DNA from: a virus | DNA: 33,445 nucleotides | Direction: 5' to 3' (one strand) | IMG/VR virus record: IMGVR_UViG_3300043570_002385 | Location: 1-33,445 of that record | Shown: positions 7,864-33,445 of the stretch, piece after piece | How positions within the stretch are numbered: position 1 is the stretch's first letter | Layout: every line of letters starts with the position of its first letter | Position numbers and translations under genes: made by a program | Notes under the pieces: model-generated | Told to the model about the DNA's origin: nothing | What the model saw: only the letters and a program-made list of their open reading frames with translations | The model's database searches: none

Positions 7864-8547
7864 TTAGTCTATTTTTTCGTAGTCTAAGCCCATACCAATA
7901 CCAAATCCAGCGCTACTTGCATTTTGACCTTGAAGAGCAAGGATGTCTCTTGAGTCGTTTGCTTGTCCACGACTAAATACCCTGGCTTTCATATCTTCCC
8001 AAGCATTGCTCTTATTAGCATTTTTATCTAAGTCTACACCCTGCATTGCTGCCATGAATTTTTTTGTAGAATAGTCTTCTTCTCTTTTTATATTTAGTAT
8101 TGCAGTTATCTCTTGCATTGATAAAGATCTCTCTAGTTCATCAAAGTCTTTCCAAATCCCCAGCAAAAAAACTTCTGATTCTAGTTTTGCCAAATCAAGA
8201 TCTTCCCAGGTTGCTCCAGACTTAACTGCCTGATCCTTTACTCCTTCATCAGACTTCTCATCTACTTTAATTCCTGCAGCATAGTCTAGCAATCTGTAAA
8301 TGTTTTTTAAATCTATTGCGTCTTCAAAGTCTTCAATTGATCTTGAGATCTTTGGCATATACTGTTTCATGCAGTTCATTCCGCAAATGGCAAGAGCAGA
8401 TATAGCCTCAATGTCGCCCTTTGCTGATCTTACACCTTCAAAGTCATCCATGAACTTTCTTAGATACTTAATCTTAAGAGGAGATATTTCTAACTCAGTT
8501 CCGTCAACTAAATAAATAATTCCAGTTTTGTATATTTCTGTAGCCAT
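7864..8547 (-). CDS. Tail assembly chaperone, long (GT-like) form
   Basis: 227 residues from ATG 8547 (MATEIYKTGIIYLVDGTE). A TTG start at 8577 would lie inside a terminator hairpin upstream of the promoter, so it is rejected. Residues 1 to ~105 are homologous to the 103-aa neighbour. Residues ~125-190 hold the segment WKDFDELERSLSMQEI...KREEDY...KKFMAAMQGVDLD, typical in style of the T half of actinophage tail assembly chaperones; the end is glycine-rich. In most long-tailed phages G and GT come from one gene by a programmed frameshift. Here the long form is a continuous gene followed by a separate short paralogue. The ATG is 6 nt after a TATACT box with no Shine-Dalgarno, so translation is probably leaderless. 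Role inferred from position, paralogy and motif. Confidence 0.8.
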   Translation of the reverse strand: MATEIYKTGIIYLVDGTELEISPLKIKYLRKFMDDFEGVRSAKGDIEAISALAICGMNCMKQYMPKISRSIEDFEDAIDLKNIYRLLDYAAGIKVDEKSDEGVKDQAVKSGATWEDLDLAKLESEVFLLGIWKDFDELERSLSMQEITAILNIKREEDYSTKKFMAAMQGVDLDKNANKSNAWEDMKARVFSRGQANDSRDILALQGQNASSAGFGIGMGLDYEKID

Positions 8548-8553
8548 TATATA

Positions 8554-8562
8554 AGTATACCA
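8554..8562 (-). promoter_or_regulatory. Extended -10 promoter giving a leaderless mRNA (long chaperone)
   Basis: Minus strand reads TGG-TATACT, then 6 nt (TATATA), then ATG. Transcription would start at or next to the A of the ATG. It abuts the U-rich end of the terminator of the upstream gene. Confidence 0.7.
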
Positions 8563-14972: not shown

Positions 14973-16559
14973 TTATTGAGATGATCGCCCTTCGCCTTTT
15001 GGATTTCTTCCAGCGATAGTAGCAGAACCATCTGATTGATTGTTGGTTCTTTCGGCGTCTCTTTCACGATCTGCTGGATTATTTGTAGCCTCTGGCTTTG
15101 CAACAACTGGATCATCACCACCATCTCTTTGTGGCATTCCAAGAATAGTTCTTGCCTCATTAGGAACCATAATTTGATTCTTAACATAGCGCTCAAGGAT
15201 CTGAGACTGAGCAATTTCATCAGTAAGTGTAAGTTCGTTGAACTTGAAATCTAGAATATCTGTCTTTTCACGAATGATCTTATTGATCATCTTGTTTAAC
15301 TTATCCTGTGCTGGTCTTGAAACTTGCTCCTTAAATGTTCTATCCTGTGCCAATGCTGCTGCAATGTTTGATGAATCTCCCCCGCCAAGTTTAGACAATG
15401 GAACTTGGTGAGCAACCAAAATGTCGTCACGGTTTTGCTTACGGTATTCTTTAAATGAGCCTTCCTGAATTCCATTCTCAATTGGTTCCATCTTAAACTC
15501 AACCTTGTTACCATCTGAATCTCCTGGCAATGGGATGTAAAGAGTTCTGTGGTTTTGTCCCTTTAGGCCTGTCTGCAAGAATCTAAACATCTTGTCTTCT
15601 GCTTCTGCTGATAACTTTGCACCCTTAAGAGTTACAACGTATCTTGGAACAGCCTTGTTGCTAAAGAAATCAATGTTGTACTGTGATGCAAGTGCGTCAC
15701 CGTAAAGAGAGTTTATTGCTGCCAAGATGTCAGGTACTCCATAGAAAGTGTTTAGTGGAGAGTATGACTTAAAGTGAATAATCTCGTTTGGTCTTGGATC
15801 TGTCCCTAGAGGGTTTGGATTAGACGCTCCAAAATTACGGAAGTAGACAACCTTGTTTCCAATTACTTGAACGAACCCATCACGAAGTCTTCTGATTCTA
15901 ATTGTTGTTGAAGGTATATGACCAACATATCCAATCTCTCCCTTAACAGTTCTTCCAACTTCTAGGTATGCATTACCAGTAGACTGAAGGTCTGTAAAAA
16001 TTTTCTCCATAGTTGATGTAAATGAATCTTCTGTGTTTAAGGATTCTAGCCAATCTCTAACTTCAATCTTTGCTCTTTCAATTCTTTTTCTTGCTCTTCC
16101 GATTGCATCGTTGTCTGAAGATGACTCCAACTTTAACATTGTTCTTGCTGAAACCTCAAAGTCATAGCCAAGTCCAACAATGTTTTCTACCTTTGCATCA
16201 ATAGCAGCATGATTAGCAAATGATGTATCATAATAACTTGCTAGTTCATAAAGATTCCATGGTGGTGTAATAACATCAAACAAACCATAACCATTTCTGT
16301 AAATAGTTCCTGGATTAATTTCTTTTGATCTTGCACCGTTGATACCAGTGCTCTCTGCCCTAGATGAATCAATGTATCCTTGTGTTACTTCTGTCTTTGA
16401 TATTCTGCTTGCTCTTCGCTTAAAGTTATTTTCTAGTCCCTCGAAAAATTTTAGATCATCCCACGACTTATTGAATGGGTCTTGCTTAATAAAAGTATCA
16501 TCTTCTGGTGCAAGTTCATCGATTCTTGCTGGGATTCTATATTCTGAATTATCTGACAT
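14973..16559 (-). CDS. Portal protein
   Basis: 528 residues, the dodecameric gate through which DNA enters and leaves the head. The core at roughly residues 95-450 follows the PBSX/HK97 portal pattern: FANHAAIDAKVENIVGLGYDF, LQSTGNAYLEVGR, IIHFKSYSPLNTFYGVPDI followed by an AINSLYGDALASQYN helix, FFSNKAVPRYVVTL, and later DDILVAHQVPLSKLGG. The last ~60 residues are hydrophilic and disordered in character. Its ATG overlaps the stop of the upstream small gene (TAATG), so the two are translationally coupled, and the protease gene follows 7 nt after its stop. Length is normal for the family. Confidence 0.92.
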   Translation of the reverse strand: MSDNSEYRIPARIDELAPEDDTFIKQDPFNKSWDDLKFFEGLENNFKRRASRISKTEVTQGYIDSSRAESTGINGARSKEINPGTIYRNGYGLFDVITPPWNLYELASYYDTSFANHAAIDAKVENIVGLGYDFEVSARTMLKLESSSDNDAIGRARKRIERAKIEVRDWLESLNTEDSFTSTMEKIFTDLQSTGNAYLEVGRTVKGEIGYVGHIPSTTIRIRRLRDGFVQVIGNKVVYFRNFGASNPNPLGTDPRPNEIIHFKSYSPLNTFYGVPDILAAINSLYGDALASQYNIDFFSNKAVPRYVVTLKGAKLSAEAEDKMFRFLQTGLKGQNHRTLYIPLPGDSDGNKVEFKMEPIENGIQEGSFKEYRKQNRDDILVAHQVPLSKLGGGDSSNIAAALAQDRTFKEQVSRPAQDKLNKMINKIIREKTDILDFKFNELTLTDEIAQSQILERYVKNQIMVPNEARTILGMPQRDGGDDPVVAKPEATNNPADRERDAERTNNQSDGSATIAGRNPKGEGRSSQ

Positions 16560-16963
16560 TAGTCATCACTTCCATACTTTGCAATAGTGTCCTTGGCTGC
16601 TTGTACTGCTCCAAGGTCGTTCATTGAAGGAATTAGTCCTTCTGCTAGTCTTTGCTTCTGCTCAGAGTATTCTTCTTCTGAGATTCTAGTTAGTCCTGGT
16701 ACAAAGATGCATTCGCCATCTCCTTCATCCCCGTAATATTTTGCAGCATCACGAAGTTTTGCAATCTGTGAGATGTCACCACGCATTGATTCTATGTTTA
16801 AAACAGATCCAGTTCCGTCTGTAAACCACTTTCCACTAGCCTTTTTGTATACATACAGGCCCCATTCGTAGTGCTTCTCAATAACTTTTACACGGGATTC
16901 GCCAACTTGACCCTTCATCTTGGGCAATTGCTTACTCTTTTTTTTAGGATTTTCTACATTCAT
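16559..16963 (-). CDS. Small basic protein coupled to the portal gene, function unknown
   Basis: 134 residues from ATG 16963 (MNVENPKKKSKQLPKMKGQ). An ATG at 16969 is also in frame, but it lies only 1 nt after the -10 box, while 16963 is 7 nt after it, where a leaderless message would begin; there is no Shine-Dalgarno for either. The N-terminus is lysine-rich. The middle (HYEWGLYVYKKASGKWF, GSVLNIESMRGD) looks like a small beta domain, and the C-terminus is helical and acidic. It overlaps the portal start by one base. I do not recognise a family; a portal-associated or packaging-related protein is a guess from coupling. Confidence 0.7.
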   Translation of the reverse strand: MNVENPKKKSKQLPKMKGQVGESRVKVIEKHYEWGLYVYKKASGKWFTDGTGSVLNIESMRGDISQIAKLRDAAKYYGDEGDGECIFVPGLTRISEEEYSEQKQRLAEGLIPSMNDLGAVQAAKDTIAKYGSDD

Positions 16964-16970
16964 AACCATA

Positions 16971-16979
16971 AGTATACCA
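16971..16979 (-). promoter_or_regulatory. Extended -10 promoter giving a leaderless mRNA (portal unit)
   Basis: Minus strand reads TGG-TATACT (TATACT at 16971-16976), then 7 nt to the ATG at 16963. It probably drives the small gene, portal, protease/scaffold and capsid down to the terminator at 12365-12394. Confidence 0.65.
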
Positions 16980-20723: not shown

Positions 20724-22757
20724 CTACTTGTTTATTTTAATTTCACAGTAGTCTGTAGTGCAATATGCTTCACCTTGAGCCTCAAGATTATCTATACCGT
20801 CATAAATTGCAGCAAAATCAATATGTTTTAATTTGCCAATATAAGACTCGTATTGCTCTTCAGTAATGCCTGTGTATGGTTGCTGTGGGTAAACAGTGTT
20901 TCCCATTGGAAGGAATGAAACAGCCTTTAGTTGTCCCTCATACATATTGAGTGCTGGGACAATATGCTTAGACTCTGTTTCTTTATCAAATGATAATGTT
21001 ACAGAAACCCCATTGTCAGACCAGTATTTCTGAGCAGTTGCTGCAAGTGCAATCTTTTCAAATAATGTAACATCTTTTTCAGATCTTGGGTGACCTGACT
21101 TAATTGGGAAGTAAACTACTGATGTATTTGCTGATACTACGTCATCTTCAATTGTGTACCCTGCTGCTTTGAACAAGTGCATCATTGGATCTGTGTTTCC
21201 AAATCGAACTGCACGAAGGAAGAACTCTCCTCCAGGACCCCAGTGAACTCCAGGAGTTGCACCAGAAAGAATTGAAACAGATCCTGATGGCTTGACTGTT
21301 GTTACACGAATTGATTCACGAACACAAAGCCATTCTGAATACTGGTGATCGTAGTGACGAATCTTGTTGTATCCTTCATCCATCCACTCACGAACAATTG
21401 GCAAACCCTTTTGATCTGCAAATGATGCAATACCTGTTAGAGATGTACCAATGCGACGATTGCGTTGCATGATACCGTTTGTTTGTGGCCAGTGTGTTGG
21501 AACAAGTGTTACAGTCTTTCCATAAAGATATGCAAACTTCAGGGTACGCAGGAAGTCTTCCTTGGATTCATGACGATTTAAGTGCACTTCTACAAGTGTA
21601 CATAGTTCGTATGATTCCAATGGCTGCTCCGCACATGGGTTAAATCCCATCACACGATAATCCTTACCGTCTGGCGCATCCTTTAGTCGTCCATAATTAC
21701 GAGCAACATCAAGCCAGATAAAACCTGGTTCTCCATTTTCCGTAATTAAATCTACATAGTCTTCGTACTTTGTTCCTACTTCTGCTGAAATAGAATTATT
21801 AGACATCCAGGCCCAACCTGGATTTTCTGGATCAAATGAGTTACGCTCTGGGAATAGTTCTGAGTTCTTTAGATTCATAAATGTTTCATCCCCTGCATTT
21901 CCCAAAGCAAGTGTTGCTGAGCGTCGAACATTTCCTGATACCACACAGGTACCAATAAGGTTTACAAGGTCTACAATAGCACGAGAGTCTAGTGTTTCAC
22001 CTGCTCTGGAGCCGATTACACGGTCTATCTGCTCATGCAACTTGATAAGAGGTGCAGGTCCTGATGCAACGCCCCCAAAGCCCTTGATAGGCGCTCCTAG
22101 GGGTCTAATTAAATCATAGTTAAATTTCTGAATACTTTGGTTTGCTCTAAGGTATGAGTTGATTAGAAGTCGTACTGACTCTACCCATCCTTCACGAGTG
22201 TCTGGGATTTCGAACACCTGTTCGGGTTCTGTTGGAGCATAGATTGAGAAATTCTTATCCTGTCCTACTGTGTCAAACCCTACACCAATACCAAGCATCA
22301 ATGCATCCATAACCCAGGCAAACAGGGCTCCTGGATCATTCTTATCAAGGTCTTTTGTAGATACCATTGCACAGTTTTGTAGTGCTGCAGAGTTCTTCTT
22401 CTCCATAGTCATAGGAGTTCCAAATGCCCACATGCCTCGTCCTGGTGGTGTCCACTTCAATTCAAACATTCTTTGGAAGGCTTCTTGTGCAGACTTCTGA
22501 GCCTTGTAGTCATTCCATGGCAAACGGTTTTCTTTAGCATGATTCTTCTGTACTGAATACATACCCTCGATTACACGACGACAAACCTCATGCCATCTTT
22601 CCTTAGTTCCATCTTCCTTCATACGAGAATATGTACGAATAAAAGTAATTTCTCCAAGTGAGTTTTCTGCTGCATCCTTAAACCCAAATGGGCTTTCTTG
22701 GCTCTTGTATTTTTCTACGAAGTCCTCTGGAAGTTTAAAACTAAAAAAATCTGACAT
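20724..22757 (-). CDS. nrdJ: Adenosylcobalamin-dependent (class II) ribonucleotide reductase, monomeric RTPR type
   Basis: 677 residues. It reduces ribonucleotides (triphosphates in the RTPR branch) to deoxyribonucleotides for phage DNA synthesis, with a radical started from coenzyme B12. Key residues are all present: Cys129 (QNCAM) and Cys386 (ELCTL) as the active-site redox pair; Asn373, Cys375 and Glu377 in NPCAE, with Cys375 as the thiyl radical; and C-terminal Cys666 and Cys671 (CTTDYC), the CX4C pair that passes electrons from thioredoxin. LGIGVGFDTV and VKPSGSVSILSG are also typical. AAGGAC lies 7 nt before the ATG, with an extended -10 upstream. Slightly shorter than the Lactobacillus enzyme (about 740). 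No B12 riboswitch is seen. Its place between tail genes is unusual. Confidence 0.95.
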   Translation of the reverse strand: MSDFFSFKLPEDFVEKYKSQESPFGFKDAAENSLGEITFIRTYSRMKEDGTKERWHEVCRRVIEGMYSVQKNHAKENRLPWNDYKAQKSAQEAFQRMFELKWTPPGRGMWAFGTPMTMEKKNSAALQNCAMVSTKDLDKNDPGALFAWVMDALMLGIGVGFDTVGQDKNFSIYAPTEPEQVFEIPDTREGWVESVRLLINSYLRANQSIQKFNYDLIRPLGAPIKGFGGVASGPAPLIKLHEQIDRVIGSRAGETLDSRAIVDLVNLIGTCVVSGNVRRSATLALGNAGDETFMNLKNSELFPERNSFDPENPGWAWMSNNSISAEVGTKYEDYVDLITENGEPGFIWLDVARNYGRLKDAPDGKDYRVMGFNPCAEQPLESYELCTLVEVHLNRHESKEDFLRTLKFAYLYGKTVTLVPTHWPQTNGIMQRNRRIGTSLTGIASFADQKGLPIVREWMDEGYNKIRHYDHQYSEWLCVRESIRVTTVKPSGSVSILSGATPGVHWGPGGEFFLRAVRFGNTDPMMHLFKAAGYTIEDDVVSANTSVVYFPIKSGHPRSEKDVTLFEKIALAATAQKYWSDNGVSVTLSFDKETESKHIVPALNMYEGQLKAVSFLPMGNTVYPQQPYTGITEEQYESYIGKLKHIDFAAIYDGIDNLEAQGEAYCTTDYCEIKINK

Positions 22758-22867: not shown

Positions 22868-23611
22868 TTACTTAAAGACTTTTCTGTGCCAGTGTTTTAG
22901 TCTATATCCATTTTGAAACATTGATCTTACAACTCTGCGCTGTAGATTTGTTTTTTCTGGATCCCATTCTTTGTCTAATTCCATAGACCAATCTTCACGC
23001 TTAAATGGAAACACCTGCGCTAACGGAGTTCCTTGCTTTATAACTCCCTTGAAATTTTTCTTAACAAAGAATGATAGATGTCCATCTGAAAAGAATTCAT
23101 CAGTATCAATAATTGCTTCTACTGCTTGCAATGGTGATGGAGGTTGGTGCATAGGTTGCATAAATAGTGTACTATATCCTGGTGGAGTCTTTACCATCCA
23201 TGTAGGGTGAATTCTAAAAACTTGATTAACATAAATACCTGCATCCATTGGGAACCTTGATATTTGCTCTGAAGAGTGGTGTGCAATTAATTCTTGTTGG
23301 AATCTTTGCATTTCTCCTGGCAATTGTACCTCAAATTTACCATCTGTTGTATCTACGTAAATGTCTACTGGCACTTTTAATATATACCCTACAGACATGG
23401 CATCAAAGAATGCTTGACACTTTTTTACAGTTAACTTGAATGATCCATTTTGCGGAGTGTCTTCGTCTGGTCCAGAAATGCTTGGCTGATCTTTATACCA
23501 CTGAGGAACATTTTTTGTACCTGGTTCTGGCAATGGAAAAACATCAACTAGATGTGGGTATGCTTGCAAAAATGTAATCTTGTTAGAGTTACTGGTATTA
23601 TCTTTTTTCAT
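22868..23611 (-). CDS. Protein of unknown function, possibly DUF6065-like
   Basis: 247 residues starting MKKDNTSNSNKITFLQAYP. No signal peptide, membrane segment or repeat. Notable segments are VFPLPEPGTKNVPQWYKD, FRIHPTWMVKTPPGYSTLFMQPMHQPP, and GVIKQGTPLAQVFPFKRE near the C-terminus. These suggest a compact, cupin-like beta fold, and the pattern reminds me of the DUF6065 family seen in phages; this is from memory and uncertain. It ends VVRSMFQNGYRLKHWHRKVFK-like basic. The ATG is 6 nt after a TATACT box with no Shine-Dalgarno, so leaderless. It lies between the Hint-domain protein and the ribonucleotide reductase. No function is assigned. Confidence 0.65.
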   Translation of the reverse strand: MKKDNTSNSNKITFLQAYPHLVDVFPLPEPGTKNVPQWYKDQPSISGPDEDTPQNGSFKLTVKKCQAFFDAMSVGYILKVPVDIYVDTTDGKFEVQLPGEMQRFQQELIAHHSSEQISRFPMDAGIYVNQVFRIHPTWMVKTPPGYSTLFMQPMHQPPSPLQAVEAIIDTDEFFSDGHLSFFVKKNFKGVIKQGTPLAQVFPFKREDWSMELDKEWDPEKTNLQRRVVRSMFQNGYRLKHWHRKVFK

Positions 23612-23617
23612 AATACA

Positions 23618-23626
23618 AGTATACCA
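23618..23626 (-). promoter_or_regulatory. Extended -10 promoter giving a leaderless mRNA (247-aa protein)
   Basis: Minus strand reads TGG-TATACT (TATACT at 23618-23623), then exactly 6 nt to the ATG at 23611. No Shine-Dalgarno. Confidence 0.7.
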
Positions 23627-29573: not shown

Positions 29574-30020
29574 TTAAGCCTTTAATCCAATTCGTGCGTA
29601 ACGAACTGTTATAGGTATTTGACCGCCTACTGGAGTGACTGTTAGGGCCACGGTATTTCCAGTGCGTGAGACATTAATGGTGCCAATATTCCCATCATTG
29701 TCGATTGTTCCGTATTCGGTTACATTTACTCCTGCACCGTCAACAAGAACAGTTAATTCTGTTGCATAAAACTTGTTATCCCCTTGTGAGACCTTTGAGA
29801 TTGACACAAGGTATTTGACCATTCGAAACTCAGTTGCATTAAAGTTGTCAACAACGGTTGTGTTTTCAATTCCATTGATTGTAACTTCGTTATTACCTGA
29901 TGTACCCAAATCTGTTGCTTGGGATGAAAGGGTATCGATTAGATCTACGTAATCTTCCTGGGTAGGACGATCACCAGTTTGAAACTTTAACTTAACATTC
30001 GGAATTGTGAGTTTGGCCAT
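29574..30020 (-). CDS. Small fibre or baseplate protein with a shared C-terminal beta domain
   Basis: 148 residues starting MAKLTIPNVKLKFQTGDRPT. Residues ~55-148 align with the end of the 795-aa fibre: VVDNFN...FRMVKYLVSIS, ELTVLVDGAGVNVTEYGTI, GNIGTINVSRTGNTVALTVTP. This domain is common at the end of cyanophage-type fibres. The short N-terminal part is different and may be the attachment segment. The ATG lies 6 nt after a TATAAT box with no Shine-Dalgarno, hence a leaderless message. Probably a capping or connecting piece of the fibre; the exact position in the virion is unknown. Confidence 0.7.
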   Translation of the reverse strand: MAKLTIPNVKLKFQTGDRPTQEDYVDLIDTLSSQATDLGTSGNNEVTINGIENTTVVDNFNATEFRMVKYLVSISKVSQGDNKFYATELTVLVDGAGVNVTEYGTIDNDGNIGTINVSRTGNTVALTVTPVGGQIPITVRYARIGLKA

Positions 30021-30026
30021 GCTGTA

Positions 30027-30035
30027 ATTATAACA
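30027..30035 (-). promoter_or_regulatory. Extended -10 promoter giving a leaderless mRNA (148-aa protein and fibre)
   Basis: Minus strand reads TGT-TATAAT (TATAAT at 30027-30032), then exactly 6 nt (TACAGC) and ATG. No Shine-Dalgarno. Confidence 0.75.
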
Positions 30036-30251: not shown

Positions 30252-30667
30252 TAATCCGTTACATCTTCAAGGATCTTCATGCTGCCCTGACAAACTGTCC
30301 AGACTCTTGTTGGGTCGCTAACTTGAATATCAAAGATGTCTCCTGTCTGCAATACATTGGATTCTTCTGCTGTAAGCCAAACTGTAAATTCTCCAACAAG
30401 GTCATCTTCATCTGCAACTGGATGCAAAGCCATTATTGTAGTTGCATTATCAGTGATGACTCCTTTGTCTGCTGCAAGGGTTGGTCTTTTAATCTTCATA
30501 GAAATATCCCACTCAGATCCAGGACCCTTTAAAATCAAAGGCTGCTTAGCATCATCTGTTACATAAACCTTAAACCCAGAGGTGTCTCCACGAACCACAG
30601 TCCAAATAACTGTTGGTGGCTTATTGCCTATATCATATGTTTTTTGAGATCCTCTTAAAGTTGCCAT
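30251..30667 (-). CDS. Probable baseplate-type protein, function uncertain
   Basis: 138 residues starting MATLRGSQKTYDIGNKPPTVIW. The pattern (IWTVVRGDTSGFKVYVTDD, DISMKIKRPT, LVGEFTVWLTAEESNVL, GDIFDIQVSDPTRVWT) resembles the Ig-like N-terminal domain of phage upper baseplate proteins, which describe a field with a W-x-V-x-x-G-D start. This is a resemblance, not a proven match. The ATG lies 6 nt after a TATAAT box without Shine-Dalgarno (leaderless). It precedes the 65-aa gene and the fibre cluster, which fits a baseplate or fibre-attachment role. Confidence 0.6.
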   Translation of the reverse strand: MATLRGSQKTYDIGNKPPTVIWTVVRGDTSGFKVYVTDDAKQPLILKGPGSEWDISMKIKRPTLAADKGVITDNATTIMALHPVADEDDLVGEFTVWLTAEESNVLQTGDIFDIQVSDPTRVWTVCQGSMKILEDVTD

Positions 30668-30673
30668 TGTTTT

Positions 30674-30682
30674 ATTATATCA
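30674..30682 (-). promoter_or_regulatory. Extended -10 promoter giving a leaderless mRNA (138-aa protein)
   Basis: Minus strand reads TGA-TATAAT (TATAAT at 30674-30679), then exactly 6 nt (AAAACA) and ATG. No Shine-Dalgarno. Confidence 0.75.
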
Positions 30683-30685
30683 CAA

Positions 30686-31711
30686 TTATAGGTTTAGTTT
30701 GGCTTCTCGCCATTCTCTATAGATAGATCCTTGACCCTCTCCAGTAGGAGTGTTCCAGGAAAAAGGACTTCCCTCTGGATGATCATCTACCCCAAGATAC
30801 TTAAACCTTACATCCTGCTTCTGTAATCTTTCACGGTATATGTAATTACTAAATGTACTACCAGGAGTTCCAATAAAATCATTTGCATATGTAAGTATTA
30901 ATGAAGAGACTAGGCCATAAGCAATCTCTGATGTATTTGGAAGTAGGGCATACTCTTTTGAAAAATTATCGACAATAATGTCATCTAATATAATTACATT
31001 CTTTCCCTTTACCATTTCGTTTTCTACTTCGTCAGTTAGAAGAACTATTTTCTTTTCAGACAATGCACTAATTGCATCATCAAACTCTTGTTCTGAAACA
31101 GAAAAGTTTACTTTATGGTCTGTAAGTCTTAGATGTATTGCATTAAAATCTCCCAGGTAATCTGCAACCATTTTTGCAAAGTCTGTATATTCTTTTTTAA
31201 ATTTAATTGAGTTAATAGCATTATCAACCTCTTTGGTTCTTCCAAAAAAGAATCTTCCGTATGCTGCTAAATTGTATGAACGAAGATCGTAGTCTTTGTC
31301 TTTTTCCATTTCTAGTTTTGTTCTATTAACTGCAAACTTTTTTTCATTTTCTGCATCGGAAACCTTAAAGTACATCTCGTGTAGGGGTAGGGCATCAATA
31401 ACAATATAACCTTCTTGTGGTTCTTGTATATTTGGATTGATCATTGTGTGGCCCAGAGATTCTGGATAGTCTATCAACTCTAAAATACTTGGAATATCTT
31501 CTGACATAAGAGCAGCCCTTTTGCCCATTGGCACACCAGAACTGATTGAGGGAATATCTATTGGCCATAGAAGGTCGTTTGTTACATTGTAGACTGTTAA
31601 CTTTTTTCCTGTTGCTTGAGCAAGTCCAAAAGCAATCTCTAGACTAAAAACCTGATTAAACATTCCTCCTCTATGGAGTTTATAAAATATAGAACCTTTG
31701 TCTTCAGCCAT
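30686..31711 (-). CDS. Glycosyltransferase of the fucosyltransferase type (GT-B, NodZ/O-FucT-like)
   Basis: 341 residues. Three features match GDP-fucose-using transferases: a glycine-rich start, GGMFNQ at 15-20, before a helix; HLRLTD at 193-198, corresponding to the HxRxxD nucleotide-sugar motif of alpha-1,6- and protein O-fucosyltransferases; and FIGTPGSTFS near 279-288, the C-terminal donor-binding motif. No membrane segment, so cytoplasmic. Its start overlaps the epimerase gene by 8 nt, so the two are made together. As that enzyme should yield GDP-L-galactose (6-hydroxy-L-fucose), the donor here may be GDP-L-galactose rather than GDP-fucose. The acceptor could be a virion protein or a host glycan; the sequence does not tell. 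Confidence 0.75.
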   Translation of the reverse strand: MAEDKGSIFYKLHRGGMFNQVFSLEIAFGLAQATGKKLTVYNVTNDLLWPIDIPSISSGVPMGKRAALMSEDIPSILELIDYPESLGHTMINPNIQEPQEGYIVIDALPLHEMYFKVSDAENEKKFAVNRTKLEMEKDKDYDLRSYNLAAYGRFFFGRTKEVDNAINSIKFKKEYTDFAKMVADYLGDFNAIHLRLTDHKVNFSVSEQEFDDAISALSEKKIVLLTDEVENEMVKGKNVIILDDIIVDNFSKEYALLPNTSEIAYGLVSSLILTYANDFIGTPGSTFSNYIYRERLQKQDVRFKYLGVDDHPEGSPFSWNTPTGEGQGSIYREWREAKLNL

Positions 31712-32729
31712 TAATTTCTTCTTTTATCCAGTTATACGTTTTTTCAATTCCATCCTTAAGAGACATCGAATAATCCCAATCTAGTCTTTCTCTGACCAAG
31801 TCGTTATTAGAATTTCTGCCTCTAACTCCTAAAGGACCAGGAATATGCATCTTGCTTAAAACCCTACCCTCAACACCACAAGCAATATCTACCAACTGAT
31901 TAATAGTAACCATTTCTTCAGACCCAATATTGACTGGTCCAGTAAAGTCTGACTCCATAAGCCTTCTTGTTGCTTCTATGCATTCATCTATATACAGGAA
32001 TGACCGAGTTTGTTCTCCATCCCCCCAAATTTCTATAAATCCATCTGACTGAATAACTTTTCTACATATTGCTGCTGGTGCTTTTTCTTTTCCACCATCC
32101 CAAGTTCCTTCTGGTCCATAAATATTGTGGTATCTAGCAATGGCTACAGGAATCTTGTTGTTTCTGTTAAAGGCCAAGAACATTCTTTCACTAAACAGTT
32201 TCTCCCAGCCATACTCGCTATCAGGATCTGCAGGGTATGCATCAGATTCCTTAAGTCCAGGATTGTTGACATCTAATTGCTTATAGTCAGGATACATGCA
32301 GGCAGAACTTGAATAGAATATCTTGGTTTTGTTTATATCATATTTTTCATTAAGCCTGGACTGTGCTCTTAAAAGATTAAGGTTTATCAGAGCAGAGTTT
32401 TCCATAATCTGAGAATCGTTGTCCCCAGTAAAGATATATCCAGCACCCCCCATGTCAGCAGCAAACTGGTATATCTCATCAAAGGAAGTTATCATTCTGT
32501 ATGGAATGTTGTGATAAAAGTTTCCCTGGTATCCTTTAAACTGAATTACTTTTTCAACATTGTCGTATACTGATAAATCTCTTTCAATAAATTCATCTGC
32601 TTCTGATTCTGAAAAGTCTGGGTGCTTTAAGTCAACACCTCTAACCCAGTATCCTTCTGACTTTAATCTTTTTACCATGTGGCTTCCAATGAATCCACCA
32701 GCACCAAGGACCAATGCTGTTTTTTGCAT
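31704..32729 (-). CDS. GDP-mannose 3,5-epimerase
   Basis: 341 residues from ATG 32729 (MQKTALVLGAGGFIGSH). A TTG at 32759 would add ten residues before the Rossmann fold and is rejected; the ATG also overlaps the preceding stop (TAATG). An extended short-chain dehydrogenase: NAD loop GAGGFIG (9-15), SSACMYP with Cys144, Tyr173 and Lys177 in YGWEK, and GGKEKAPAAI with Lys216. From memory these align within one position with Cys145, Tyr174, Lys178 and Lys217 of the plant enzyme, and the flanks (RYHNIYGPEGTW, IWGDGEQTRSFLYIDEC, PVNIGSEEMVTINQL) are very similar. The expected reaction is GDP-D-mannose to GDP-L-galactose (with some GDP-L-gulose). Partner of the downstream glycosyltransferase. Confidence 0.9.
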   Translation of the reverse strand: MQKTALVLGAGGFIGSHMVKRLKSEGYWVRGVDLKHPDFSESEADEFIERDLSVYDNVEKVIQFKGYQGNFYHNIPYRMITSFDEIYQFAADMGGAGYIFTGDNDSQIMENSALINLNLLRAQSRLNEKYDINKTKIFYSSSACMYPDYKQLDVNNPGLKESDAYPADPDSEYGWEKLFSERMFLAFNRNNKIPVAIARYHNIYGPEGTWDGGKEKAPAAICRKVIQSDGFIEIWGDGEQTRSFLYIDECIEATRRLMESDFTGPVNIGSEEMVTINQLVDIACGVEGRVLSKMHIPGPLGVRGRNSNNDLVRERLDWDYSMSLKDGIEKTYNWIKEEING

Positions 32730-33241
32730 TATGCCAAACCGCTCTTTAATGCTCCCCAAGTACCGTTGCCTTTTGCTTCAACGATAATAATTCCTGTACT
32801 AGATGCATGTGCAACAACTCCAACTGCACCACCGTATTGCTGATTTGATAAGCCACCACTTTCTCCAACATAAAGAACATCTCCATTGGCAAAACCAGAA
32901 GTATTTATGTTGTCCATAACTCCTGCAACAACTGCAATTCCATCAGAGCCGTTAGGGACAGGAGTTTTTAATAGTCCAAGAATTGGATCTTGGGTTGAAG
33001 GCAAGGCTTTTGCAATTGTAGTTTTTGTAGTATATCCAGTTGCATAAACTGGTGTTCCTGCAGGTAAATTTTCACCACTATTATTTAATATTCCAAGTTG
33101 AAACTGAGATAAACCAAGTGGTGGCAATATAACCATTAATCTATTTACGAGTGATTCAATATCCTCGTGGACATTTACTGGGTCATTTGCAAGCGGGTAT
33201 GGTAATTTAAACAGTGCGTCATTAGTATTTCCAGTGGCCAT
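32729..33241 (-). CDS. Small structural protein, probably capsid decoration or fibre component
   Basis: 170 residues starting MATGNTNDALFKLPYPLAND. The central part (ENLPAGTPVYATGY, GIAVVAGVMDNINTSGFANGDVLYVGESGG, YGGAVGVVAHAS) has the short beta-strand and turn pattern of capsid decoration and fibre-collar proteins of cyanophages and related phages. First gene of the cluster with the epimerase and glycosyltransferase, whose start overlaps its stop. The ATG is 9 nt after the -10 and has no Shine-Dalgarno. It may be the acceptor for the sugar made by the next two genes; that is a guess from the coupling. Confidence 0.65.
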   Translation of the reverse strand: MATGNTNDALFKLPYPLANDPVNVHEDIESLVNRLMVILPPLGLSQFQLGILNNSGENLPAGTPVYATGYTTKTTIAKALPSTQDPILGLLKTPVPNGSDGIAVVAGVMDNINTSGFANGDVLYVGESGGLSNQQYGGAVGVVAHASSTGIIIVEAKGNGTWGALKSGLA

Positions 33242-33250
33242 AGTGTATTA

Positions 33251-33259
33251 ATTATACCA
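33251..33259 (-). promoter_or_regulatory. Extended -10 promoter for the sugar cassette (minus strand)
   Basis: Minus strand reads TGG-TATAAT (TATAAT at 33251-33256), then 9 nt to the ATG. No Shine-Dalgarno and no clear -35. Only 10 bp separate it from the -35 of the divergent plus-strand promoter. Confidence 0.65.
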
Positions 33260-33269
33260 CCATCTAAAC

Positions 33270-33299
33270 TTGACTTTTGTTAAAATTTTGTGTTATACT
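33270..33299 (+). promoter_or_regulatory. Divergent sigma70-type promoter, plus strand
   Basis: TTGACT at 33270-33275, an 18-nt spacer and TATACT at 33294-33299, with TGT before the -10 (extended). It is the only promoter here with an obvious -35. It drives the gene at 33347. Confidence 0.8.
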
Positions 33300-33323
33300 A
33301 GGTGTAGACACCTACCAAGGTGT
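33300..33323 (+). promoter_or_regulatory. Operator-like repeats over the plus-strand start site
   Basis: AGGTGT-AG-ACACCT (33300-33313), a perfect 6-bp inverted repeat with a 2-nt centre, followed after ACCA by another AGGTGT (33318-33323). The start site would fall at about 33306, inside the repeat. It fits a repressor site; the ACACCT could instead pair with either AGGTGT as a leader hairpin. Confidence 0.55.
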
Positions 33324-33346
33324 TATTGTTTTCTAAGGAGGAAACT

Positions 33347-33445
33347 ATGATTAAATTTATCGAAAGAAACAAAGAGATCATTAGCACACTCAGTATCGTA
33401 GCATTAGTAACTGTTTTGTCGAACGGAGCCAATGCTGATTCAGGT
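33347..33445 (+). CDS. Exported or membrane protein, partial: only the N-terminus is in the window
   Basis: Opens with MIKFIERNKEIISTLSIVALV, then VLSNGANADSG before the window ends (33 residues). AAGGAGG (33335-33341) is 5 nt before the ATG. It has a basic N-region, a hydrophobic stretch (~12-24) and ANA followed by Asp, a good signal peptidase I site (cleavage after Ala30). It is the only plus-strand gene here, under its own regulated-looking promoter. In a phage, a secreted protein could be a lysin, a superinfection-exclusion protein or a surface factor; the rest of the gene is needed to decide. Confidence 0.75.
   Translation, partial: MIKFIERNKEIISTLSIVALVTVLSNGANADSG

Follow-up and report, generated by a model that had tools for sequence, protein, structure and literature searches.

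The ACACCT/AGGTGT pair at the divergent junction near the end of the window (the whole stretch of viral DNA analysed, 33,445 nucleotides) is, judged by compensatory changes, G-U pairs, variable loops and folding in related phages, a predicted RNA stem-loop rather than a DNA dyad. We propose that it belongs to the leader of a lysin mRNA, at a divergent junction of an actinobacteriophage, and that as a hairpin close to the 5' end it controls how long the message lives or how well it is translated; we give this reading a probability of approximately 50%. The weak guess of an operator with which the analysis began gives way to an RNA element that would mark the lysis gene across one set of actinobacteriophages from metagenomes.

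Genes and promoters of the junction

Relatives were fetched with the 170-aa protein encoded on one side of the junction and with three lysins, the best 80 being taken of 230, at least 594, 285 and at least 600 matches. The resulting 313 loci gave 287 leader rows, one per locus, of which 276 had an SLT motif and 11 an NlpC motif; the 26 loci without a row were the window's own (L001), those with no lysin motif, and those with a start less than 115 nt from the locus end. A Shine-Dalgarno sequence was present in 285 of the 287 rows, and the two rows without one (L009 and L210) were left out of the counts. Because some contigs occur under several locus ids, counts were made on distinct sequences (138 78-mers and 151 118-mers).

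On the plus strand, positions 33347-33445 encode the first 33 aa of a candidate lysin of the lysozyme-like (SLT_3) type that looks secreted; the window ends inside this gene. Its N-terminus looks like a signal peptide by eye, in agreement with the earlier description of this gene as one for a secreted protein. The near-identical locus L002 supplied a full relative of 187 aa, again with a signal-peptide-like N-terminus by eye, which carries an SLT-type domain (Pfam SLT_3, E 3.7e-16; SLT, E 1.3e-5) and had a weak match by sequence to lysozyme C in the PDB (E 1.5e-4). Among named phages, the full lysin matched 22 records (17 Prochlorococcus and 5 Streptomyces; best row 30% identity, E 2e-17) and query P0002 had no match; PHROGs held no family for the lysin or for the 170-aa protein. 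In 11 loci, the gene at the same position had an NlpC/P60 motif in place of SLT, and the domain was found with E 2.9e-16 in L040, the locus tested among them. In these loci (L039, L040, L046, L047, L050, L051, L060, L062, L065, L066 and L067) the NlpC/P60-type gene sits upstream of the homologue of the 170-aa protein (P0001), replacing the lysozyme-like lysin with an unrelated protein; it starts with TTG or GTG and has a similar hairpin leader. Because its relatives carry SLT_3 or NlpC/P60 domains, the plus-strand gene is predicted to encode a cell-wall hydrolase, most likely a lysin.

The first gene of the minus-strand operon (32729-33241) encodes the 170-aa protein, an uncertain structural protein whose match to Phage_cement_2 (E 0.0023) was below cut-off strength and which matched two records of named phages, weakly (34%), in the tail fibre of one cyanophage. 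It is followed by a NAD-dependent epimerase (E 6.7e-36) and then by a protein with a weak match to O-FucT (E 0.00035, below cut-off strength). The sugar cassette that had been proposed on this strand was consistent with these two genes, but its first gene is of uncertain kind; the epimerase and weakly O-FucT-like genes (30686-32759, minus strand) form a possible glycosylation cassette adjoining the lysin junction. Farther along the minus strand are tail-fibre-like proteins, ribonucleotide reductase, portal, head protease and head protein, the ribonucleotide reductase gene (20724-22757; PHROG 367, E 1.2e-142) lying amid structural genes. The junction divides the lysin gene from the minus-strand operon and so is a module boundary, as the original prediction suggested it might be, though an ordinary one as boundaries go.

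The portal (14973-16559, minus strand) had 48-49% identity (maximum 48.7%) over 95% of its length to those of LukeCage-type Streptomyces phages, a likeness that refers to the portal only. WhiB was found above the curated cut-off in 12 of 13 large related records, which were chosen by hand, and among 14 control genomes in Corynebacterium only. On the basis of WhiB and the portal, the window phage and its relatives are assigned to the actinobacteriophages. A search for the host through the lysin in genome contigs gave 49 stretches that fit the pattern and no relatives. The G+C content of the window is 39%.

The 105 bp between the two genes (33242-33346) read as had been described, with two divergent promoters. 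On the minus strand, an extended -10 promoter, TGGTATAAT (TGG-TATAAT, 33259-33251), was read directly 9 nt before the ATG (33241-33239); it is absent from the promoter-scan list, the scan requiring two hexamers. The lysin promoter was found by the scan, with a -35 box TTGACT (33270-33275) and an extended -10 box TGTTATACT (33291-33299; TG at 33291-33292, TATACT at 33294-33299) separated by an 18-bp spacer, and 10 of 12 positions matching the consensus. Only the plus-strand promoter has a -35, and 10 bp separate its first base (33270) from the TG of the minus promoter (33259), both as first noted. From the spacing rule alone, transcription of the lysin gene is predicted to start at 33306-33307, 7-8 nt past the -10. 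The repeat AGGTGT-AG-ACACCT-ACCA-AGGTGT at 33300-33323 was likewise present over and after this start: the first AGGTGT, the proposed operator half-site (33300-33305), lies upstream of the predicted start, and ACACCT (33308-33313) and the second AGGTGT (33318-33323), both read directly, lie past it.

In the relatives, TGn preceded the -10 of the lysin promoter in 149 of 151 distinct sequences (counted by script among the best 80 relatives per search), and the two exceptions carry TATACT or a like box twice, the script having picked the second. In 126 of the 151, a -35 that matches TTGACA at 5 or more of its 6 positions was present with a spacer of 17-18 bp. The lysin promoters of L022, L026, L028, L030 and L163 have TTGAC approximately 28 bp before the -10, not 18, and in this group the promoter may need no -35 besides its extended -10. 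The minus promoter was compared in the 54 of the best 80 P0001 loci whose match starts at residue 1, and all 54 have TGn-TATAMT 6-9 nt before the ATG of the 170-aa gene. Both -10 boxes were located in 49 of these 54 relatives, with 25 to 73 bp between them. Competition between the two promoters, which the original prediction offered as an alternative to repression, is possible at the window, but because this gap varies so widely it is not the conserved feature of the junction.

No Shine-Dalgarno sequence was seen by reading before the 170-aa gene, and the minus promoter, with its -10 ending 9 nt before the ATG in the window, is likely of the leaderless or near-leaderless type. The minus strand of the window holds 11 copies of TGnTATAMT compared to 1.12 expected, and the plus strand two, one of them the lysin promoter. 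In six of the 11 an ATG follows 6-9 nt past the -10, with starts at 33241, 30667, 30020, 23611, 16963 and 8547 (the last two being the analyst's choice of start); judged by -10 spacing, the ATG of these six genes would lie at, or within approximately 3 nt of, the transcription start. In the other five the listed gene start is 15-43 nt away. Apart from the junction, the TG-extended -10 boxes stand at 8547-8562, 16963-16979, 23611-23626, 30020-30035 and 30667-30682 on the minus strand, 6-7 nt before an ATG. It was the recurrence of TATAATTA close to the starts of genes that suggested leaderless messages, and leaderless expression looks common in the window phage by this sequence pattern. Further genes of the window are led by a Shine-Dalgarno sequence, so that the lysin is not alone in this. 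A T4-like late promoter, TATAAATA, was also considered on the minus strand and rejected, with 58 occurrences at up to one mismatch compared to 48 expected and as many in 13 of 100 shuffles.

The hairpin of the lysin leader

The ACACCT/AGGTGT pair of the repeat is predicted by folding and covariation to form a 7-bp RNA stem, SL1 (GACACCU-ACCA-AGGUGUU, 33307-33324, plus strand), at the 5' end of the lysin mRNA. Among the best 80 relatives per search, a stem of at least 6 pairs was present between the -10 and the Shine-Dalgarno sequence in all 138 distinct leaders, the stem search requiring a CC/GG core. Covariation was counted by a script anchored on this core, because the MAFFT alignment (A1) had put AACCCT-type stems out of register. 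The arms differ from group to group: GACACCT/AGGTGTT in the window, and AACCCT/AGGGTT, ATGGCACC/GGTGTCAT, ATGAGACC/GGTCTCAT, ATGCTACC/GGTAGCAT and AAGACC/GGTCTT elsewhere. Pair 1 from the core is invariant. Pair 2 was C-G in 112 leaders, A-T in 17, G-C in 8 and T-A in 1, and thus paired in all 138. Pairs 3, 4, 5 and 6 were formed in 122, 135, 87 and 64 of the 138 leaders, respectively (unpaired in 16 at pair 3, 51 at pair 5 and 74 at pair 6), and double, compensatory changes also occurred at pairs 3, 4 and 5. When the 29 distinct arm combinations were taken together, 113 of 116 cells were paired at pairs 1-4; 5000 shuffles gave 96.3 on average and never more than 105. The stem is thus kept as a paired structure. 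Moreover, 91 of the 138 stems contain a G-U pair, and the loops vary from 4 to 9 nt and fall into ACCA-like, GNRA and A-rich classes; in the MNI/MNV group all 17 loops are GNRA, 15 of them GAAA.

Of 60 distinct SL1 segments, 59 folded better than mononucleotide shuffles at p 0.05. The window's own leader folded only modestly better than its shuffles (z -2.06; 7 of 200 as good). The median minimum free energy was -11.75 in 56 distinct lysin leaders compared to -2.7 in 101 other Shine-Dalgarno leaders from the same loci (P 5e-20, with lysins that are relatives of one another).

R1, a covariance model for leaders of the window type, matched 22 of the 26 records on which it was run, with one strong match each (E 3e-23 to 4.1e-4) at the lysin leader. 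By position arithmetic, 20 of the 22 strong matches fall exactly on the lysin start codon, and those in G025 and G026 are within a few residues of it, the listed protein match there beginning inside the protein. Four further matches were weaker than E 0.02, two of which are, by position, a second copy of TTTCTAAGGAGG inside the lysin gene; the remaining two, G011:31484-31548 in the record of L029 (E 0.036) and G021:90999-91052 in the record of L104 (E 0.085), are away from the lysin. The model had no match in four of the 26 records, those holding L040, L050 and L060 (NlpC-type) and L048. As far as these sequences go, the predicted stem is specific to the lysin and sits between its promoter and its Shine-Dalgarno sequence.

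Rfam gave no match in the window at gathering score, and at E up to 10 a single match in 33200-33445, on the other strand (E 6.3). We take the RNA leader to be a genuine element; no description of a hairpin in a lysin leader was found in the titles and abstract openings of open-licence papers.

Control of the lysin message

If lysin transcription starts at approximately 33306, SL1 of the window would begin 0-1 nt from the 5' end. There it would most likely set the lysin yield per message, mainly through pairing of the 5' end: a paired 5' end would be a poor substrate for pyrophosphohydrolase and for 5'-end-dependent RNases, and the message would live longer. A weaker stem, SL2 (GUUUUCU-AAGG-AGGAAAC, 33328-33345, folding at -5.0 kcal/mol), which holds part of the Shine-Dalgarno sequence AAGGAGG (33335-33341, read directly), would perhaps moderate ribosome loading. 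By spacing only, the stem starts less than 7 nt past the -10 in 42 of the 138 leaders, 7-8 nt past it in 45 and at least 10 nt past it in 51, and these last 51 would leave approximately three or more unpaired 5' bases. Bacillus RppH favours single-stranded 5' ends, needing at least two unpaired 5' nucleotides and preferring at least three, according to the portion of the report drawn on here (PMC3997798). In the 5' UTR of Mycolicibacterium smegmatis esxB, a double stem-loop did not make the message more stable, and the most protein was obtained once both hairpins had been removed, in those parts of the study used here (PMC11728522). By this analogy, the esxB data together with the leaders that would have at least three unpaired 5' bases argue against simple stabilisation, and the 51 late-starting stems in particular weaken the standing of a stabilising hairpin.

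The same 51 stems and the esxB leader data make translation damping the main rival to message stabilisation. SL1 and SL2 together would restrict ribosome loading on the lysin message and prevent premature lysis, as in T4 gene e, a gene of the same kind that is controlled in this way in the account consulted (PMC3014915); the esxB result, read by analogy, favours such damping. The SL2 helix takes up the final AGG of AAGGAGG, these bases having an unpaired probability of 0-0.1 in window-type leaders, but AAGG stays in its loop. Accessibility of the Shine-Dalgarno sequence was not lower in lysin leaders (mean 0.75) than in 101 other genes (0.66; P 0.11), and in the window it was less open after the upstream sequence was shuffled (mean 0.36 compared to 0.77 for the native one). 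At most 5% of shuffles folded as well as SL2 in 7 of its 26 distinct versions, including that of the window, and more than 5% in the other 19. Compensation in SL2 was seen in few leaders, for example L096 and L060, and the stem is lost in two groups, L213 and L266. Moreover, the T4 mechanism depends on longer early transcripts, and none is evident at the lysin. SL2 as a sequestering hairpin is weakened by the shuffle test and the accessibility comparison, and the case is not rested on it. Damping is possible, but on balance we consider it doubtful.

The original prediction was that a repressor over the plus start would switch the secreted-protein gene while leaving the sugar cassette on; in this reading a repressor of phage or host would bind the AGGTGT dyad and switch the lysin gene. 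The dyad, a perfect 6-6 repeat, lies over the start site, has a third half-site beside it and is kept in the seven nearest loci. It is weak evidence by itself, and the question turns on the relatives. When up to two mismatches were allowed, 1.19 such dyads were expected per window and one was found, which is exact. Three 6-6 dyads with spacers of 0-6 were counted in 33242-33346, and order-1 simulations of the same 105 bp (5000 runs) gave at least one in 28% and at least two in 10%. Only the closest relatives of the window, L002 to L008, share the first AGGTGT (4 of the 138 distinct leaders), and the dyad is not conserved at the promoter in the relatives at large; as this half-site lies upstream of the predicted start it would not be transcribed, and it is probably incidental. 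Further copies, which had been suggested as a check, were not seen: the dyad is single in the window, and the 109-kb relative G002 holds one exact dyad, no second exact or one-mismatch copy, and one other match with two mismatches. The seven nearest records, six of which are fragments of less than 20 kb, have one exact dyad each, and beyond those, one two-mismatch match was found in each of two records. The hairpin also varies in the manner of RNA, in the sequence of its stem, the length of its loop and its content of G-U pairs. An operator on the DNA is therefore unlikely; control of the lysin message at the RNA level is the more likely function of the repeat.

An RNA-binding protein of phage or host that times lysin synthesis by binding SL1 would account for the one strong copy per matching record, at the lysin, and for loops that fall into classes. 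Loop and stem sequences differ among groups, however, so that the protein would have to read shape or co-vary with its target, which makes this reading improbable. A role as intrinsic terminator or attenuator where the lysin transcript begins is more improbable still: the scan lists SL1 as terminator-like and UUUUUCGUUU lies past the stem in some groups, but the tail is UUAUUGUUUUCU in window-type leaders and UCAUUCGUUUCU or similar in much of the MINFM group, and no U run after the stem is conserved among groups.

The reading preferred here, of a leader whose hairpin sets message life or translation, could be carried further, and only speculatively. In such a view the RNA leader would be specific to the lysin, widespread among actinobacteriophages from metagenomes, and a lysis timer that sets several leaderless genes of the late region against a structured, Shine-Dalgarno-led lysin message, a late change in the state of ribosomes or of decay freeing lysis; we regard this extension as rather unlikely. 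Phages whose enzyme is unrelated (NlpC/P60 compared to SLT_3) have a similar hairpin. The leader could reveal how the dose or timing of lysis is controlled in phages of Actinobacteria, and it could serve as a signature for locating actinobacteriophage lysins.

Comparison with known systems

Stabilising stem-loops at the 5' end of a message are known from the ompA and papA leaders and from the T7 gene 10 leader. The lysin leader is like these in having a hairpin at or near the predicted 5' end, a U-rich stretch and a Shine-Dalgarno sequence. It differs in that part of the lysin leaders would have at least three unpaired 5' bases; moreover, structures in M. smegmatis are not stabilising in general, as far as the sections of PMC11728522 used here go.

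On the other side of the junction, the window's minus-strand genes share the arrangement of -10 box and start codon of the leaderless 'TA-led' genes, which are frequent in Actinobacteria and have a -10 box approximately 10-12 bp before the start codon according to the passages of PMC3160421 relied on here. The phage genes differ in carrying a TG-extended TATAAT in AT-rich DNA (39% G+C).

For T4 gene e, the source, in the part drawn on, describes a lysozyme Shine-Dalgarno sequence that is buried in a helix of the longer early transcripts and freed in late ones (PMC3014915). The lysin leader resembles it in placing RNA structure ahead of a lysozyme-type lysis gene. In contrast to T4, the main conserved stem lies upstream of the Shine-Dalgarno sequence, in the lysin gene's own predicted transcript.
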